A stretch of 64,000 nt of DNA from Hyaloraphidium curvatum (taxonomy: Eukaryota > Monoblepharomycota > Hyaloraphidiomycetes > Hyaloraphidiales > Hyaloraphidiaceae), in the NCBI GenBank assembly GCA_025558095.1, contig JAIVFI010000037.1, positions 62,001 to 126,000 on the forward strand. Reading direction: 5' to 3'. Of this stretch, positions 29,053 to 54,143 are shown one piece after another. Position 1 is the first letter of the stretch, and the number at the start of each line of letters is the position of its first letter. Under the pieces are notes generated by a model that was not told the origin of the DNA, ran no database searches, and was given only the letters and a program-made list of their open reading frames with translations. A program made the position numbers and the translations under genes.

Positions 29053-31550
29053 ATGCCACGGCTTTCCGCATCCTCCTCGGTCCGCAGGCCTGGCGCTGCC
29101 GGGACGCGCCGGATGGCGGCGCTCTGCTGCCTGGCTGTCCTCACCGCCATCCCCCTCGCCGCCGGCGAGCAAGCGGCGCAGGTCTCCGCCGGCGGCGGCT
29201 TCTCGCTCGCGCTGCTGCGCAACGGCACCGTCCGCGCGTGGGGCTCCAACTCCGTCGGGCAGACGGCGGTGCCCTCCGGCCTCGGGGACGCGGTCGCCGT
29301 GGCGGCGGGCAGCTCGCACTCGCTTGCCCTGCTGCGGGACGGCACCGTGCGGAGCTGGGGATCGCTGACCGACGTGCCCGCCGGGCTCGCGGGCGCGGTG
29401 CAGGTGTCCGCGGGCTTCGGGGCGTCGTACGCGCTGCTCGCCGACGGCAGCGTGCGCGGCTGGGGCCCCGAGATGCGCGCATCGTTGGATGCGCTGGCCC
29501 CGGCCAAGCAGATCTCCGCGGGCGACTTCCATGTGCTATCCGTGCGCACCGACGGCTCGATCGCGGGGGCCGGCGCGGACGACTACGGGCAGGCCACCCC
29601 GCCGGCCGGCCTGGGGCGCGCGGTGCAGGTCGCCGCGGGGAACGACTACAGCCTCGCGCTGCTGGCCAGCGGCTCCGTCGTGGCCTGGGGCAGGCAGATC
29701 GACGGGCGCACCTCGGTCCCGCCCGGGCTGGAGGGCGTGGTGCAGGTCGCGGCGGGGAGGTACCACGGCCTCGCGCTGCTCTCCAACGGGACATGCGTGT
29801 CCTGGGGCGACGCGAGGAACGCACCTCCGCCGCAGAGGTTCGCGCAGGTGTCGGCTTCGATCGGGCAGTCCCTGGGCCTGCGCCTCGACGGAGGCGTCGA
29901 AGCCTGGGGGCCGGACGCGTTCGCGGTGCCGGCGGACGTCGCCACCCCGGCTCCGTCGCCCCCAGCGCCTCCGCCGGCTTCTACCGAAGGCAGCTCGGCC
30001 CCGATCGGCGCGATCGTGGGGGGTGTCGTCGGGGGACTGGCTGCCGTCGCGGGCGTCGCCGGGGCCGTCGTCTACGCGCGCAAAAGGTCGCAGAAACCGG
30101 TTCCTGCACCGGAAAAGGGGGATGCATCGGCAATCGGAGGGGACAAAGGAGCCGGGACTCATGCCAAGGACGACAGCGGCCATCCCGGCGACTTGACTTG
30201 GGGAATCCCGCCCTCCAATGGGGATTCCGCGGCGGCATATGACTCCTACAGGAGCGCCTATCCAGCATCCGACCAGACCTCCCCTCCCCAATTCCAACCC
30301 GCCTTGCCGAAACAAGCAGCGCCGGCTGCGAGAGCGTGGGAGGCTCCGATCGACGCGATCTCGGGCGCTCGTCCTTCCTTTGCCCCCGCCTCATCCAACG
30401 CGGGGTCCAGCACCGCCTTCGGATCTTCCCCGGGGTCGCTGCAAAGCGGACTTGGCGCCGAAACCTTGGCTGTGCCCACGATCGCGAGCAATGGCGGCGG
30501 GCGGTCACCGGCTGTGGCTGCATCATCCACGCCCGCAGTCAGCACTGAACAGCAATCCATCCCATCGGTGCCGGTCGTCACCGAGGTCGCACGGCTCGGA
30601 TCAGACGGCGCGCCCGCGGCGGATGCGCCCCACGCGCAGCAGCAGAGCAAGCTCCTCGTGCCCGCCTCGGACATTGAGATCGACCACTCCAAATCCCTCG
30701 GGCAGGGCACCTTCGGCGCCGTCTACCAGGGCCGGCTCAGGGGCAGCGTCCGCGTGGCGGTCAAGACGCTGAAGGACACGGACGCGGCTGCGGCCGCGGC
30801 GTTCGCCAGGGAGGTGCGCAACTGGGAGGGCCTGGTGCAGCGCAACGGTGGGTCGGTCGCTCGGCTTCGCATCCATCCCGGTGCTGACGGCAGCGCAGTG
30901 ATGCCGCTTATGGCGTACTGCCTCGATCCTCCGATGATGGTCTGCGAGATCGCCGACGGCGGCAACATGCGGCAGTACCTCGGGCGCGCCGGATGGGACC
31001 AGGGCCTGGGCCGCAAGCTCCTGTCCGAGGTGGCCGCGGGCATGACCTACCTGCACTCGGCGCACGTGCTCCACGGGGACCTCAAGTCCGTCAACGTGCT
31101 CGTGGACGGGGGCCGGGCGCTCATCACGGATTTCGGGCTCTCGCGCGTGCGCGCGGACAACGCGGCGAGCGCGACGGTCGGGGGACTGTTCGGCACCCCG
31201 GGGTTCATCGCGCCGGAGCTGATGAACGGAAAGTCGCTGCGGGCCCCCGCGGACGTCTATGCGTTCGGGATGGTCTGCTACGAGGTCGTGAGCAAGGGCC
31301 TGTACCCGTTTCACAACGTCACCAACATCATGGCGCTGATGTACCAGGTGGGTTGTCTCCTCTGCTCTGGTCCGACAGGATGCAATGATGACTGATCCTC
31401 ATGCAGGTTGGCGTGGAGAACAAGAGGCCCGAGAGGCCGGCGGGCGTCCCCGAAGCCATGTGGGCCTTGATGCAAGCGTGCTGGCAGCCGTCGCCCGAAG
31501 AACGACCCAAGATGGAGGCGGTGCGAGACACCCTCGAGGACATGGTCTGA
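29053..31550 (+). CDS. receptor-like kinase: RCC1-type ectodomain, TM, TKL kinase
   Basis: Three exons, join(29053..30847, 30899..31347, 31407..31550), 795 aa. An ATG at 29113 would start directly at the signal peptide (MAALCCLAVLTAIPLAAG). The ectodomain has about seven RCC1/BLIP-II-type repeats of the form QVxAGxxxSLALLxxGTVxxWG. A Pro-rich stalk follows, then one membrane helix (IGAIVGGVVGGLAAVAGVAG) with a stop-transfer ARKRS. A ~190-residue low-complexity linker leads to a tyrosine-kinase-like domain: LGQGTFGAVYQG, VAVKTLK, HGDLKSVNVLV (Arg of HRD is Gly), DFGLSRV, APELMNG and PEERPKM. The first intron is 51 bp, in frame and without a stop. This is plant-like receptor-kinase architecture and unusual for a fungus. 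The ligand is unknown. Confidence 0.88.
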
Positions 31551-40252: not shown

Positions 40253-43200
40253 CTATGTTCGCTCGAGCGTTCTCGCAGCCTTCGGAGCATGCGCCAGCTT
40301 GATGAGCACGTCCGCGCTCTCACCCGTCTCATCCACGAGCCTGCGGAAGAGCCCGTCCTTCTTGTCCACCAGTTCCGCGGGCGTGCCAATCTCGGCTATC
40401 TCTCCCTGCTCAAGCACGCAGATCCGATCGTAGTCGATGATCGTCTGAAGGCGGTGCTGGAGCCAAACGAGGGCATCAGCCGTAAAGTGATTTGAGCATG
40501 GAGGCAGCTTACAGCGATGGTGATGATGGTTTTGTCCCTGAAAGAGGGATGCTCGCGAAGAACGCTCTGCATCAGGGCGTCAGAGTCGTAGTCGAGGCTT
40601 GCAGATGCCTAGTGCCGACAGCCAATCAGGAAAGACGATAGCAGCAGACCGCAGAAAGCGCACCTCGTCCAGGCAGACGATCCGCGAATTGCGGATGATT
40701 GCGCGCGAGAGACACAGGAGCTGCCGTTGGCCCTTCCTTACGCGTTAGCACGACTTCCATGTCGCACACGCCCATCCCCACCTGCGACAAGTTCTCCCCG
40801 CCTTCCGCGATGGGCATGTTTAGGCCCAGCGGGTTGGCCTGGACGACTGTCTTTAAGTCGCCGCACGTCTCCAGCACGGAAAGGATCTCCGCGTCCGAAT
40901 GCTCGCCGAACGGGTCCACATTGTATTGGAGCGTGCCCGAGAAAACCTGTGACAATGCCAGTTAGGGATCTCGCCCGCAGAGACCATGCTGGAACTCCAC
41001 GAACCACCGGGTCTTGCGGAATGACCGAGAGAGCGCGGCGGAGGTGCGCGAGGCCGAGCTTCGAGATGTCGATGCCGTCGATGAGGATCTGTCCGCCGCA
41101 CGGCTCCACCAGGCGGAAGAGGGCCAACGTGATAGACGATTTCCCGGCTCCGGTGCGCCCGACGATGCCGATCCGCTCTCCAGCAGCAATCGTGAGGTTG
41201 ATCCCCTTGATGACAAGCGGCAAGTCCGGCGCGTATCTCATCTCCAGGTTCTTCAGCTCAATCTGCCCTTTGGAAGGCCAGCTGGGTGGCGGCTTCAGCT
41301 CGGTCACTTCGGCGGCTTCCGACGGCAGGTGGTCGATGTAGTACTGAAGGCGTTCGACGCCGTTCAGCTGCAGCTCCATTTCCGTCAGATTGCGCATGAG
41401 CCCGTTTAACGTCCCCGTGATCCCCAGCGCGTACGTGACGGCGAGGCCCAGGACCGCAGGCGAACCCCCGCCCGCGACCGCGCCGACCGCGAACATCGAA
41501 GAAGAGAATACAAGGAGCGCCGACATGACCTCGATCCGCAGTCCGAGCCAACGTCCAACCTGGATGGTAAGCCAGTTGAAACGGTTGTTAAAATCGAGGC
41601 GGTTCTGATTCTGCTTGATGAAGCTGAGCTGCAAGTGATACGACCGCACCGTCGAGAGCCCGGAAAGCGTCTCCGAAAAGTTTGCGTACAAAGGGCTACG
41701 CGAGTTGGAGTCCAGTCTCTTGAGCTCTCGAGCCGTGTTGCGAGCGACGCGCGAAACGAAGTAGTAGACCACCAGCAAGGGAAGGCAGACGGCAAGGAAG
41801 ACCGGCAAGAGTGTGGCAATAAGAACGATGGTGGTGAGGACGATGCTGAACATGAGGAGGAACAGCCTGCAAAGAGCGTGTCAGACGGTCCGCAATGCAA
41901 AAATAGAGGCCCAAACCTGAAGAATTCGACGAGCTGAGTGTCCACGGCATCAACCTGCAAGCCGGCTGTGGTCAAAAGGACAGATGAGGGAGATTACGGG
42001 CGCTCTCACGTCGCGGCTGAACCGGTTTAGAATCCTGCCCGCTGGCGTCCGGTCGAAAAAGGAGACAGGTGCTCGGACGAGCCTGAGCGCAGGTCAGCTC
42101 CCGAAACTCCCTTCTCGAACAGCAACTCACTTTGCGATGGCTTTCTCGTGGATCCCCCGCGAAGCGAGCATGCCCGCAAATGCAAACATCAGGCCGCTGA
42201 TGAGGAGCAGCGCTGCCATGCACGCGCCGAGCGCAAAGTACACCCCCAGGTACTGCGACAACGAGTAGGTCGGGAACCGGTTCTGGGTCCATGCCGTGAG
42301 CCAGAGGTTGATTCCGATCCCGGCCACCTGGCTCAGGACCATGGTCGAGACAATGGCGATCCAGAGGAACCAGCCACCGCCGTTGGAAACGTAAGCGGCA
42401 TAGACACTGAAAGGAATCCGACCCGTGTTGCGCTCCTCCTCCAAGTTGTGCTTCCGGCCAGCAGTTCCGGCGCGGGCAAACGTATCGGCTGCCGGAGCTC
42501 CATCTGCAAGTCCCCGCTGCGGAGCCGAGCTGCGGCGACGTGCTTTGCCCTGATCTGTGGACATCTTGACCACTTCCGTAGCGTCGGAGCCGTCGCCCCC
42601 CGCAGTGCTCGTCCCGTCATCGCCGCCCACGATACCGAGGGTGTGCGTCGCGGGTACAATGCCCTCTTCGACATCTTCAGCGTCCTCGACTTCGCCGAAC
42701 ATGTCCATGTCGTCGCCCGGATCGGTCCTCGCAGTACTCTGCCGGCGTTGGAGTGGAACGCCATCCGCTTCGCGCAGCTTCAAGACCTCGTCAACCGAGC
42801 TCACGTCCGATTCGTCCTCGTCCAGCAGATCGTCCTCATGAGAGGTCGTCGAGTAATCCGCGACGAGCTTCGACAGATAACCGTTCCGCGCCAAGAGCTC
42901 CTCGTAGGTTCCCTGCTCAACGATCTCGCCCCTGTCCAAGCAAACAACGAAATCGGCATGCGGGAGGACGTGGAGTTGATGCTGGTAGAGGCTTCAGCTC
43001 ACGGTTCTTGTGCACCGAAAGAGAAAGACCTACCGTCGCCATCAGGATGGTTTTCCCCTTGAGAACTCCCAAGACGGCCTCGTGAAGGATGTGCTTCCCA
43101 ACGTGCGCGTCCACAGCGGAGAGAGGATCGTCCAGGAAAACGACGTCGTGCTGCGAATAGACAGCCCGGGCCAGAGAGATGCGCTGAACCTGTCCACCGC

Positions 43201-45363
43201 TGCAGTTTATGCCGCGTTCGCCGATCTCGGTCAGGTCACCGTTGGCGAAAATCTCGAGGTCCCTCTGCAAAGCACACGCCCGCACGGTTTCCCAGTAGCG
43301 CTTCTCGTCGTACGCCTGCCGCGTCCCGAGGGTAATGTTCTCCCGAACCGTGGCGTTCATCACGAAAGCACGTTGGGCGCAGTAGGCAATGGTAGGCCGC
43401 GACGACGATCCGGCATAGACGACACTGCCGTCCACTAGCTTCATCTCGCCCGCCAACGCCATGAGGAGGCTCGACTTGCCGCTTCCGACCGGGCCAACAA
43501 TGCACACAAGAGACCCCTTGGGCACGGACAGGTTGATCGAGCGGAGAGACGAAAACTTGTCCTCTTTGGCCTTCTCCAGCTCGGTCTTCGTTGCGGTCGC
43601 CTTGGTGGATTCCAGCGGGACGACGGATGTTCCGGCCTCCAACTGCGCCAACGAGTCTGTCGGGTTCGCCGTGAGCCCTCGGTTGCCGAAAAAGCGCCTT
43701 CGCGGTCCGTTCGAGGCGGTCAGAGTGGCATTGGGCGACGCTCGTGCCGAGAACGTGAGGTCGTTCGGGTCCAGCTTTCCCTTCTTCACGGCCTTCAAAT
43801 CGGGAACGGCCTCCTCCGGAGACTCCCACTTGAATGTGGCATCCGAGACAACGATGGCGACGGGAGAGGAGGCACTCGCGACCGAATCGGTCGTTCCGGT
43901 CGTACCGAGACCCGGGTGCCCGATGGCCTTCTCATCCAGCTCATCGGCCATGAGAAGAGCCTGCAGCCGCTTCAAGGAGACCAGCGCGTCTCCCACGGTC
44001 GAAATCGAGGTAGGCTGATGAGGTGTCAGTCCTCTTCAGGGAACGGCACGCGGACTGCAGCTTACAAGAGACATCAGGGGAAAGCGAAGGACGTTCATAT
44101 ACGCCAGCGAACCCAGGATGGTAGCAGCGTTCATGCTGCCGCCGAGAGCAGCATCTGCGTGGGACAGGGGCTCAGCAAAGCATAATCCGATAGCGCGAAA
44201 ACACCAACACGTGGCAAACATGCCCATGGAAGCGAGAACCGGTTGCAGCACGTAGATGCTCATGACAAAGGCGCGCAGTAGCGAAGCTTTCCTGATGATG
44301 CGCAGCTCCTCCTCGCGGAGTTCCGACAGGTGCTTGAGCATAGCGTCGCCCCAACCGTACAGCTTTATGACCCGAATGCCGCTAACGAGCTCGCCGGTGA
44401 CTTTGACGCGTTGGTCGGTAAGCTTGTTTGCCGCCTTCCTGTACGCCATGGTGAACTTCATCAGGCTCCCACTCAGGGGGATCATCACGACCAGAATCGT
44501 CAAGCCGACGAGCGCAGCAGGGGCGCCGAGGTTGATGATGAGGACGATTGTAATCTCGAGAACCAAGAGTGGAGAAGCCCACAAGGACTGCGCTTCTGCG
44601 AGGGTCCGTTCCATCCGCGAAGTGTCGGTGGAGAGCACGTTGATGGCCCTGCCCGCCGAAAACTGCGTCCGGGCAGCCTGAGAGAGGCGCAAGCACTTCT
44701 GGAACACCGCAGCAATCAGCGACGTCCGAACTTCGAGGCCTGAACGCTGGGAGAACGTCCAGAACTGGTTGGCCGAGAAACTGTTCAGCAGCTGGAGCAA
44801 CAGAATGCCCGTCGCGTAGCCGAATCCCACGGCGGTGGAAGGCGCAGGGGCTCCGGGGGTCGGGGGCCCAATGAACCAGAAGGTCCAGTACGCCGTCAGG
44901 AAGGCAATGAGCCTCTGCAGGAGGATCGGGCTGATCACCTGGTAGACCGGGGTCAGGAAGGCAATGAGGCGCTGCAAGAAGAGCGAGTCACCTGTGAGAA
45001 ATCACCCATGAACCGGAACACCGAGCCGGTCAGCCAAGTCCGGCGGAATGACCTCCAGAGCGCTATGGCGAGCGAAGGCTTCGGGCGACCGAGCTCGGCT
45101 TCCCACTCCCGCAGAAAAGTCTGCTCGCACAGCAGGTTCGACCGCAGCCACCTCGACAACGGAGGCGCATCTTTGGCCTCCACCGTGTTGCGGTAGCCGA
45201 ACCATATCAGGGGATCGAGCCAGGTGTAGGTCAGCAGCTGGAAGATGTTGGCTCCGTCCTCGGGCGATTCCGCGTGCCGGGAGTAGAACGGCGAGAACGG
45301 GTCCGCTTCCGGATTGTCCGAAGCCAATTCGTCGTCGCGATCGAGGCCCGTCCTGGCCGCCAT
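40253..45363 (-). CDS. MRP/ABCC-type full ABC transporter
   Basis: Twelve exons, complement(40253..40456, 40513..40608, 40664..40732, 40782..40946, 41008..41866, 41917..41954, 42010..42082, 42131..42981, 43034..44014, 44066..44154, 44209..44938, 44992..45363), 1508 aa, 4527 nt. It exports organic anions or glutathione conjugates across the plasma or vacuolar membrane. Topology is TMD1-NBD1-TMD2-NBD2 without an N-terminal TMD0. NBD1 has Walker A GPVGSGKSS (~571), signature CSGGQ and Walker B VFLDDPLSAVD, where Asp replaces the catalytic Glu as usual in ABCC. NBD2 has GRTGAGKSS, LSQGQRQ, VCLDEASAS and H-loop IAHRLQ, all intact. A ~130-residue acidic/Ser linker follows NBD1. Intron 1 (44939..44991) is a copy of the next exon (see findings). 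Confidence 0.95.
44885..44991 (-). repeat. tandem duplication forming intron 1 of the ABC transporter
   Basis: On the minus strand the 53-bp intron 1 (44991-44939) and the first 54 bp of exon 2 (44938-44885) start alike (GTGA after CAG), contain a T/C-rich stretch ending TGCAG, and then share a perfect 17-base core CTCATTGCCTTCCTGAC followed by similar tails. In the frame of exon 2 the intron copy would read LFLQRLIAFLTPVYQ, against ILLQRLIAFLTAYW in the exon. The CAG/GTGA at both unit borders supplies the donor and acceptor. Confidence 0.8.
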
Positions 45364-45750: not shown

Positions 45751-47913
45751 CTATTGCTTCCCGGGCACGGCCGCGGCGAGGCTCGCGATCCGCCGCCGGA
45801 GCTTGAGCTCCAGCAGCCTCTCGTACTTGAGCTTCATCAGCTGCTCGGCCTTCCTCAGGAGCAGCTCCTCCAGCTGCAGCATCCGGAGCTCCTCCTGCTC
45901 CAGCGCCAGCAGCTCGTCGAACTCGGCGATCAGCAGCTCCTCGCGCACCTTCCGGAGCGACCGGTGCGCGGAAGCGATGCGCTCGCAGTCCTTTCTCGAG
46001 AGCTCGTGCAGGCAGCCCGCCGGAAGGGGATCGACGTCGTGCAGCCCAGTCTCGCTCTCCAGGCGACGCTTGGGGATGTTAGCCTCCCGATTCGCGCGCG
46101 CGTCCGCACGAATCGTCCTCGGGCTCCGGGGGTCGTTCTCCTGCAGGCCAGCGGCCCAGGCGTCGGCGCCCGAGACGCCTTTGGCGGCACCGCGGGCTTC
46201 GAACGTTTCGAAGACGCGGGGGCCGCCGACTTCACCCCCCCTCGTCCGGTTAGACTGCGCGTCCGCACGAATCGTCCTCGGGCTCCGGGGGTCGCTCTCC
46301 TGCAGGCCAGCGGCCCAGGCGTCGGCGCCCGAGACGCCTTTGGCGGCACCGCGGGCTTCGAACGCTTCGAAGACGCGGGGGCCGCCGACTTCACCCCCCC
46401 TCGTCCGGTTAGACTGCGCGTCCGCACGAATCGTCCTCGGGCTCCGGGGGTCGTTCTCCTGCAGGCCAGCGGCCCAGGCGTCGGCGCCCGAGACGCCTTT
46501 GGCGGCACCGCGGGCCTCGAACGTTTCGAAGGCGCGGGGGCCGCCGATGGGGCCGCCGATCCGGCCCACGAAGGAATGCTCGAGGTAGTTGCACACGGAG
46601 CTGTTCAGGGTCGGCATCTCGGCGGCGGTCGGCTCGCGCTGCTGCTCAAGGCAGCTATCCAGAATGCGCTTCGCCGCGGTGTCCTCCTTGTGACGGAGGC
46701 ACTCCAGCACGTGCCACAGAGGCCGGCCCTCGGCCTCATCGTCTTCCCGAGCGTCCCACAACTCGACTGCCGCGCCATCCCCGCGGCGCAGTAGCGCCTC
46801 CAGAACTGTCCGAGCCGTAAGATCTCGTTCCGCGATGGCGGCGAGGTTCCTCGTGCGGGTGTACGACTCGACGACGGTGCGGAGCTCGCGTCGCGCGTCG
46901 GCATCGTCGCGGAGAAGGCGCGCCACGGGCAAGTCCACACGGGCAATGTAGGCGAAGGTGACGAGAATGGCCGCGGCTTGCAGCGTCGCAGGAGGTCTGG
47001 AGGGGTGGGTGAGTACGTAGAGGAGGCGACCGTGGCGCAGCCGGCGGAGGTGCAGGTCAGCGCCGCCGAAAAAGTCGTCATGGATGCCCAGCGCGTCGGA
47101 TCCGATCCACTCCGCCCCCGCAAGCCAATCCACTGCGAATCGTTCGAAACGATGGCCGATGTGGCGCGAGGCGATGGCAAGATCGCAGTGTTCGCCAACG
47201 GGTCCTTCGACGAGGCATCGAAAGGTGCGCGAGATGAACGGTTCCCAAACCTCGCGGAGGCTCGCCTTGTTCTCCGACCACGCAGACGGCTCGGCAACAA
47301 AAGGAACGGCGTCCACAATGGCCATGCAGACCCGGTGGCCACACGCGTCCGCGATGACGGTCATGATCGGCACCCAGAAAGCCCGTATCCAGAACATGGT
47401 GATGCAGAGCTTCCCGTCAGCGACGGCACTGCCGTGCATAAGCCACGAGATTCGGTGGATAGCGAAGTGCAGAAGCATGACGAAGCGGAGGACGAATGCG
47501 GCATCCTCGGCGGTGATCTTGCCGAACCCGGACCGTCCGCCCGGCTCCACCCAAAGCCCGAAAAGCACTGAGTCAACAACTTCGCCGGCGCCGTTCGACA
47601 GGGCTTCCTCACGAATCTCTGTGCTGTGTGCCGCGAGATCCGCGATCACCTCGGCGCCGAGCGCGGCGCCGAGCAGGGCCGGGTGCATGCCGGGCGCGGA
47701 AGCGTCGGAAGGCGTCGCCGTTCCATCGCTGGCGGGGCGAGCGTCCTCCACGAGACGTAAGGCGCGCCTGATGCTGCGCAAAAGCTTCTGAGACGGTTCG
47801 TCTTTCGAAGGTTCAGGCTCTGCGCCCGGTGCGGTCAGAGGCACGGGAGCGCCCGGCGACGCAGATCCCGAAGAGTGAGGGAGCGAACCCGCGGCAGAGG
47901 TCATGGCTTGCAT
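45751..47913 (-). CDS. large protein with 53-aa tandem repeats, hypothetical
   Basis: Uninterrupted frame, 720 aa from the ATG at 47913 (a second ATG at 47904). Family not recognised. The N-terminal third is Ser/Pro/Ala-rich. Residues ~120-430 look globular and mostly helical, with hydrophobic stretches (FVLRFVMLLHFAIHRISWLM, ITMFWIRAFWVPIMTVIADA) that might be buried helices rather than membrane spans. Three 53-residue repeats follow, with a consensus of the type FETFEARGAAKGVSGADAWA, then AGLQENDPRSPRTIRADAQS. The last ~100 residues are a strongly charged coiled coil (RKVREELLIAEFDELLALEQ). It may be an organelle- or cytoskeleton-tethering protein, but that is only a guess from architecture. 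Confidence 0.6.
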   Translation of the reverse strand: MQAMTSAAGSLPHSSGSASPGAPVPLTAPGAEPEPSKDEPSQKLLRSIRRALRLVEDARPASDGTATPSDASAPGMHPALLGAALGAEVIADLAAHSTEIREEALSNGAGEVVDSVLFGLWVEPGGRSGFGKITAEDAAFVLRFVMLLHFAIHRISWLMHGSAVADGKLCITMFWIRAFWVPIMTVIADACGHRVCMAIVDAVPFVAEPSAWSENKASLREVWEPFISRTFRCLVEGPVGEHCDLAIASRHIGHRFERFAVDWLAGAEWIGSDALGIHDDFFGGADLHLRRLRHGRLLYVLTHPSRPPATLQAAAILVTFAYIARVDLPVARLLRDDADARRELRTVVESYTRTRNLAAIAERDLTARTVLEALLRRGDGAAVELWDAREDDEAEGRPLWHVLECLRHKEDTAAKRILDSCLEQQREPTAAEMPTLNSSVCNYLEHSFVGRIGGPIGGPRAFETFEARGAAKGVSGADAWAAGLQENDPRSPRTIRADAQSNRTRGGEVGGPRVFEAFEARGAAKGVSGADAWAAGLQESDPRSPRTIRADAQSNRTRGGEVGGPRVFETFEARGAAKGVSGADAWAAGLQENDPRSPRTIRADARANREANIPKRRLESETGLHDVDPLPAGCLHELSRKDCERIASAHRSLRKVREELLIAEFDELLALEQEELRMLQLEELLLRKAEQLMKLKYERLLELKLRRRIASLAAAVPGKQ
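46102..46578 (-). repeat. three tandem 159-bp coding repeats
   Basis: Units begin at 46102, 46261 and 46420, each marked by GTCCGCACGAATCGTCCTCG on the plus strand, and differ at only a few bases. The period is 159 bp (53 codons), so copy number can change without frame loss. The third unit is cut short on its high-coordinate side. The near identity points to recent expansion or gene conversion. Confidence 0.92.
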
Positions 47914-48215
47914 TGTACGGGTCAATAATGTGCGGCAGAAGTGCTGGCACGTTCCAAAGTGCCGATCTCGAGGGGGCGCGGAGGGCGACGGTCGGAAACG
48001 CGGGGGGGAAGTGCGAGGCGTAGGAAGGCGAATACACCTTAGGGCCGCCGCAGCACGACAAGCGCGGCGAGTGCTGTCGATTCCAACTACGCGCTCAGGA
48101 CGTCCGATCGGCAGCACGGGGTCCGGATTCGGCGGCGTTTGGGACGCGGGGACCACCACAGGTGAACGAGATGACGTTGATCGATCACGTCGATTCGGAA
48201 TCACGAGGTACATGT
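47914..48215. other. intergenic, no gene seen
   Basis: 302 bp between two minus-strand genes. The open frame of the repeat protein continues into it, but the translation is Arg/Ser/Pro low-complexity. Confidence 0.35.
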
Positions 48216-48651
48216 CTACATCAAATCCACCGCATTTTGCAACTCATTGATCATCTTCTCCAATTTCTGCACCCTCCCCTGGGTGTCGACGATCCTCTGT
48301 CGGATGCCCGCTTTTGCATTACGCGCAGAACGGACCTCCTGGAAAGTCTCCGCGACGTGCCGCCGCGTGACTTCCGATATTTCTCGGGTGGAATGCACCG
48401 GATCCGACTTCTCGGCCTGATGCAACAAAAGATCAGGAGCAGTCCGGGACCCAGATGCCGCAAACCAACCGGGTCTTCCGCACGAGGTCTCTTCGCCTTC
48501 GTCGCCTGCGCCGGTCCCTGATGCAAGCCACCACTCCGTTCCTGTGACGCAGTAGGCTCTCCCAGGGTCCGATCTGTCGCGGATCGATCGTCAGCAAGCT
48601 CCTCATCAGCCCCAGAGCACACGCACCGTTGTTTGAGGGCGCGTTTGGCAT
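48216..48651 (-). CDS. small basic coiled-coil protein
   Basis: Three exons, complement(48216..48416, 48470..48573, 48627..48651), 109 aa, both introns exactly 53 bp. The start is a 25-nt exon (MPNAPSNN). Residues 10-45 are Gln/Ala/Lys-rich with a nuclear-localisation-like TKAKRPR. The rest is a helical coiled coil (SEVTRRHVAETFQEVRSARN, QGRVQKLEKMINELQNAVDL). I do not recognise the family. The size and shape recall small subunits of BLOC-1-, kinetochore- or SNARE-related complexes. The clean joining of three frames is the main evidence that it is real. Confidence 0.55.
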
Positions 48652-53097: not shown

Positions 53098-53379
53098 GGA
53101 GGGCGCGGTGCGCGATCAAACGAGACAATCGAATCGGCGTCGCCTCCGACTTCATATTATAGTAGGCACGACGCCCAAAGAAAACAGCGAGAATGGGTAG
53201 ATTTAGTCGAATCAGTACATGCAGAGCGTGCCGATCAATCCTTGATAGCTCTTGAGCTCCAGCCGCGTCTCCAGTCCCTCCACGATCACTTCCGACTCTT
53301 CCAGGATCGCTCCTCACTTCTCCTCCAGCTTAGCCTTGAGGTCCTCCACGATCGCCTCCGACTCTTCCAGGATGGCCCA
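53098..53379. other. intergenic with decayed coding repeats
   Basis: Between the glycosyltransferase start and the SRPBCC gene stop, both minus-strand. The half next to the SRPBCC gene (53276-53379) repeats that gene's last coding segment (see the repeat entry). Nothing else recognised. Confidence 0.5.
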
Positions 53380-53407
53380 TCACTTCTTCTCCAGCTTGGC
53401 CTTGAGG
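53276..53407 (-). repeat. 66-bp tandem repeat covering the SRPBCC C-terminus
   Basis: On the minus strand GACCTCAAGGC(C/T)AAGCTGGAG recurs 66 bp apart, each copy followed by a stop codon and ATCCTGGAAGAGTCGG. The unit is 22 codons. The upstream copy encodes the real C-terminus DLKAKLEKK. The next, beyond the stop, would read AILEESEAIVEDLKAKLEEK and another stop. A third partial copy follows. Confidence 0.8.
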
Positions 53408-54143
53408 TCGCCGAGAGCCTCCTTCTTCTTGTACTTCGAATCCTCGACGACGGCAAGGGCCTGATCTCCGGCCGACGAGAATTCGGTCGTCCACGAGACG
53501 AAGGTCGAGTTGTCGGCGGTGACGCGGTGGAGAGTGATCGTGTGGTTCGCGCCGAGGTACGAAGGAGCCGGCGTGGCCGTCACGAGCTCCCAGCTGAGCG
53601 AGGGCGTCAGATCTGGGGGAGGAACACGTCGCAGGGGATAGAACAGGAGGAATCGAGGGACCAGAGGTAATCCGCGACACATGCAATGCCATCGACACGA
53701 AAGATGAGAGGCAGGATGGCGGAAACGCGTCTGGGAATGCCCACCGCTGAGTTCAACCAGGCGAATGACCTGGTTGGAGCCGTCCTTGTATTCGACCGTT
53801 CGGGTGCTCCCGCCGACCTGATCCGGGGCACCGCCCTCGACCTTGGAGCTTTTGACGGCCGACCAGAACGACGAGAGGTCGAGGGGCCGGATCTGGGATG
53901 CGTCGCGACGTCAGCAACGAGGGAAGAGGCGCGCCCTCGGCATCCCGCCGATGCGCCCTCGCAACGACTCGATGGAGATGCCAACGAGCCGAACAAGACG
54001 CCTTGGGAGGGGAACGCACCGTTGCCCAAACGTCTTCCAGGGGGGCTCCAATGACGACCGACTCGACCTTCAAGACGCGTCGTCAGCCATACTCCGGCGG
54101 CCCATCGCGGCGACGCTCTCACGCTGCGGGTTGCGGACTGCAT
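53380..54143 (-). CDS. SRPBCC (START/Bet v1-like) protein
   Basis: Four exons, complement(53380..53612, 53745..53892, 54020..54067, 54123..54143), 149 aa. The 21-nt first exon (MQSATRS) joins through a 55-bp AAG-ending intron to VESVVIGAPLEDVWATIR, the typical first strand and helix of the polyketide-cyclase/START superfamily. Next come PLDLSSFWSAVKSSKVEGGA, TRTVEYKDGSNQVIRLVELS, SLSWELVTATPAPS and TITLHRVTADNSTFVSWTTE. A long C-terminal helix (QALAVVEDSKYKKKEALGDL) closes the cavity. Such proteins bind hydrophobic ligands in a helix-grip fold. The ligand cannot be guessed. The 3' flank repeats the coding end with stops. Confidence 0.82.

Follow-up and report, generated by a model that had tools for sequence, protein, structure and literature searches.

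A predicted intron resembling a decayed copy of the following exon in an ABCC-type transporter gene of Hyaloraphidium curvatum

For most gained introns no source is known, and this holds even where the gain is recent (PMC4974935). Tandem duplication accounts for some of them, a review listing 188 such events by 2012 together with an in vivo demonstration (PMC3443670). In the model of Rogers (1989), as outlined in the part of PMC4974935 that deals with it, duplication of an exonic segment containing AGGT creates an intron bounded by the first GT and the second AG, and the protein is left unchanged; the same part allows the upstream portion of the duplicated unit to be short. The intron of ATP2A1 (Hellsten et al. 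2011) follows this scheme and, in the portion of PMC4974935 concerned with it, resembles the one analysed here, the first intron of an ABCC-type transporter gene (intron 1). In both, a copy of an AGGT-containing exon gives, or would give, donor and acceptor; the branch point lies within copied coding DNA (a putative CTGAC in our case); and the host gene encodes a membrane transporter whose coding sequence is unchanged. Unlike the ATP2A1 intron and the Rogers scheme as related there, intron 1 is known from sequence alone, its copy contains a 4-nt gap, and its acceptor half is untraceable. Introns of the fission yeast genes SPOG_01682 and SOCG_00815 (Zhu and Niu 2013) likewise come from duplicated AGGT exonic segments, but in the passage of PMC4974935 describing them they span several 24-bp repeats, whereas intron 1 corresponds to one unit of ~53-57 bp. 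In potato, a local tandem duplication also made a new intron in an RdRp gene; its unit, however, extends across the boundary between an exon and an intron already present, whose signals it takes over, while intron 1 needs no older intron (PMC4974935).

On the minus strand of the window, the whole stretch of 64,000 nucleotides analysed, an ABCC-type ABC transporter gene begins near position 45363. Matches of its translation to MRP1-type proteins (best E 1.5e-114) and to Pfam ABC_membrane (PF00664, 4e-32) place it in the MRP-type (ABCC) class, which is defined by an ABC_membrane domain and a nucleotide-binding domain (NBD) nearest to MRP-type proteins. Exon 1 (44992..45363), defined by its open frame and homology, runs from the ATG to ...FMGDFSQ, and exon 2 (44066..44938) is an open frame carried on by homology to MRP1. 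Between them lies the predicted 53-nt intron 1 (44939..44991; GTGACTCG...CTACCAG), with donor CAG/GTGACT and acceptor CTACCAG/G (slashes mark splice junctions). Intron 2 (44015..44065, 51 nt) contains a CTGAC branch-like motif, and neither it nor intron 3 (42982..43033, 52 nt) shows similarity to an exon. These lengths can be set beside a wider predicted sample from the genome, in which the median intron length is 57 nt, donors resemble G/GTGGGT and acceptors are CAG. Retention of the 53 nt would cause a frameshift and an in-frame stop, while their removal yields a protein that aligns without gaps across the junction with MRP1 and with paralogs. Of the three introns of the gene that were scored, intron 1 has the top total, with log-odds of 4.03 for the donor and 4.55 for the acceptor; its splice score of 11.6 lies above the median of 500 predicted introns (10.4). 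Reading frame, splice signals and gap-free fit thus support the prediction of an intron made in the first-pass annotation, and we infer that it is spliced in vivo.

Intron 1 and exon 2 share a direct repeat, 44987-44952 against 44930-44895, at a spacing of 57 and with 30 of 36 positions identical. Inside it lies the perfect 17-base core that had been reported, CTCATTGCCTTCCTGAC. It had also been noted that both units, the intron and the initial 54 nt of exon 2 (44938..44885), begin with GTGA straight after CAG, and indeed CAG/GTGA occurs at 44991 and again at 44938. The offset between these two sites is 53 while that of the repeat core is 57, so one copy must have gained or lost 4 nt. The two peptides quoted for the units, LFLQRLIAFLTPVYQ and ILLQRLIAFLTAYW, are correct. 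A Smith-Waterman comparison of intron 1 with exon 2 scores 43, whereas 20,000 dinucleotide shuffles average 14.3 (sd 2.5) and peak at 35, so that none of the 20,000 shuffled exons reached the score of the intron; the second-best 36-nt match of the core anywhere in the gene has 20 of 36 identities. The source segment (44895..44930) encodes PILLQRLIAFLT in the first transmembrane region, at a position conserved in paralogs, and the copied segment (44952..44987) ends at its 3' side in the branch-site-like CTGAC. The terminal 13 nt of the intron (44939..44951, CCCGGTCTACCAG) are of untraceable origin: outside the CAG they match the end of exon 1 at 3 of 10 positions (P=0.55), no better than chance, and the upstream part of the unit would therefore have been short, replaced by filler or decayed. 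Judged from the alignment, the 53-nt intron is for the most part a decayed copy of the start of exon 2, which bears out the similarity noted earlier.

No intron occupies this position in any of the 10 alignable paralogous loci of the same genome (L004, L005, L006, L007, L009, L010/L011, L008/L014, L012 and L013, where a slash joins overlapping loci), which represent nine distinct genes once overlaps are joined; the alignments of L013 and L012 are the weakest. Since the intron is absent from all of them, a gain in the ABCC gene is most likely, and the loss of an old intron in every other paralog is unlikely. The closest paralog is only ~36-39% identical, which makes this an argument of parsimony and not a proof, and it is in this sense, relative to the paralogs, that the gain proposed earlier is supported. 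We infer the direction and time of the gain from these comparisons. Unlike most gained introns, intron 1 has an identifiable source.

We consider it likely that this spliceosomal intron was gained by tandem duplication of a short segment around the present start of exon 2. The duplicated unit would have measured ~53-57 bp and contained CAGGTGA plus at least 36 nt of the following coding bases, the AGGT itself presumably lying inside it. The GTGA of the first copy would have become the donor and the CAG preceding the second copy the acceptor, so that exactly one copy would be spliced out and the protein would stay unchanged. CTGAC, within the copied coding bases, would be the probable branch site, a role that is plausible because the same motif precedes the acceptor of intron 2. 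The intron copy would later have lost 4 nt and diverged by ~17% in the core. A donor and a branch-like motif arriving ready-made with the copied coding DNA are a detail that the duplication model predicts. The first-pass annotation had proposed tandem duplication of an AGGT-containing segment: the local copy of the neighbouring exon stands, while the clean AGGT step fits the data without being proven, as no copying can be demonstrated for the acceptor half. Its description of a mechanism rarely caught "this fresh" was overstated on both counts, given a core divergence of 17%, a 4-nt indel and 13 untraceable nt, and given the 188 events known by 2012, one reproduced experimentally (PMC3443670). 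Intron 1 is neither especially fresh nor rare, and intron gain by tandem duplication was already known.

The untraceable acceptor half and the two registers 4 nt apart would also fit an older intron at this position that acquired a duplicate of part of exon 2 afterwards, with no intron birth. We regard this as unlikely, since none of the paralogs has an intron here and a length of 53 nt, usual for a genome with a median of 57, leaves little room for an old intron plus an insert. The duplication could instead have arisen in frame, as 57 nt or 19 codons, and been translated until a frame-breaking 4-nt deletion led to its intronization. The core spacing of 57 agrees with this, as do the core differences, which fall at codon position 1 in five of six cases and at position 2 in none, and all six of which are synonymous or conservative; moreover, an uninterrupted in-frame tandem duplication still scores 268.7 bits against a paralog-derived profile, compared with 276.6 for the spliced form. 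However, so uneven a codon-position pattern arises by chance about 5% of the time (six differences, simple binomial, post hoc), and a transporter carrying 19 additional residues beside its first transmembrane helix should be disturbed by them, and we find this course of events improbable.

The suggestion that the copy is coding in another isoform fares worse still, and we give it very little weight. The copy could be exonic in some transcripts through a 20-nt intron (44972-44991) ending at TTCTTGCAG, within intron 1, a good acceptor (6.12) that keeps the frame and adds 11 aa; or through a 98-nt intron (44992-45089), which an ab initio gene finder chose, leaving the copy translated. But 20 nt is far under the 5th percentile of intron length (49 nt), and the 98-nt intron starts from a poor donor (log-odds -0.42 against 4.03), deletes the conserved PSLAIALWRSFRRTWLTGSVFRFMGDFSQ stretch and gives a clearly worse protein. 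The paralog-derived profile scores fall to 260.5 bits for the 20-nt form and 239.1 for the 98-nt form, drops of 16 and 37; Pfam ABC_membrane, at 112.4, 110.6 and 110.3 bits, barely distinguishes the three isoforms it was given. Finally, background similarity is slightly raised by the hydrophobic, pyrimidine-rich sequence that both copies encode, but chance or an assembly artefact deserves next to no credence: no shuffle reached the observed score, outliers are as scarce as described below, and an artefactual duplication would be near-identical, against 83% here.

A duplication origin for intron 1 can be set against the genome background. A simple gene finder, run on ~334 kb made up of the paralog loci, the window and 23 random 10-kb pieces, gave 581 predicted introns of at most 200 nt with enough flank. 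Scores for intron-exon similarity have their median at 14 in 462 introns, with the 99th percentile at 23. Besides the target (43), the only outlier among the 581 is L025:8681-8737 (G000:C17:458681-458737; score 44), a 57-bp predicted intron containing a copy of the final 50 nt of the exon before it, with an 8-9 nt stretch, TAGGTTGC, ahead of the copy forming the donor. Its host gene is a PDR-type ABC transporter that stays collinear with CDR1 over the junction, and a paralog 63% identical to it (L035) has no intron at that position. In a gene-model-free repeat scan, the repeats of both introns coincide with introns and have spacings not divisible by 3. Mispaired intron-exon comparisons reached the target score in 12 of 18,432 cases, with values up to 140, presumably owing to repeated neighbouring sequence. 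The L025 intron differs from both intron 1 and the potato RdRp intron in that it copies the upstream exon alone.

Together with this second such intron, from a random genome sample, intron 1 suggests that local duplications of coding DNA, arising by accident, give this organism new introns, by a route that is known but has seldom been documented. Counting only the random pieces, one of 400 introns is an exon-copy outlier (95% interval 0.006% to 1.4%); at a density of ~1.8 introns per kb, a genome of 31.9 Mb would contain on the order of 100 such introns, with very wide limits. We suggest, tentatively and with more doubt than conviction, that coding duplications of 50-60 bp are a standing source of introns, with enough recent cases for tens to several hundred datable introns genome-wide and with more than one geometry: a copy of the downstream exon, as in the ABCC gene, and, as in L025, an upstream-exon copy in which a short filler forms the donor. 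A second independent case in a small sample lifts intron 1 slightly above an ordinary example; coming from a modest survey of a compact genome, it means that this genome could serve to measure the rate and geometry of duplication-born introns.

Introners (PMC9860276) resemble these cases in placing new introns across many genes of one genome, but they form dispersed families of similar sequence, whereas intron 1 and the L025 intron are each present in one copy and similar only to the exon adjoining them. An Introner origin was rejected for intron 1, which has a single match genome-wide, so that no family is seen. A search for known RNA families in the window returned none, as did a search for relatives in viral contigs. 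The idea of a photosynthetic alga was likewise dropped, the search for a chlorophyll a/b-binding family having come back empty. As both hosts and ATP2A1 are membrane transporters, we also considered whether transmembrane-coding DNA is predisposed to become introns. Its pyrimidine content is higher (61% vs 49%), but its AGGT sites are rarer (0.8 vs 2.6 per kb) and simulated duplications in it yield fewer good introns (0.18 vs 0.36 per kb); neither AGGT density nor the simulations support the idea.

The window holds further repeats. At 46098-46547 there is a coding tandem repeat with a 159-bp unit (53 codons), 2.8 copies and 97% identity, situated in an 830-aa open frame (45751-48243, minus strand) that adjoins the ABC gene and for which a Pfam search gave no match. 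A 66-bp tandem duplication at 53277-53409 is 89% identical, with a spacing divisible by 3. At 29585-29827, a repeat with a spacing of 113 lies in a gene; its translation, VQVAAGNDYSLALLASGSVVAWG, resembles RCC1-type repeats, which points to ordinary protein repeats.
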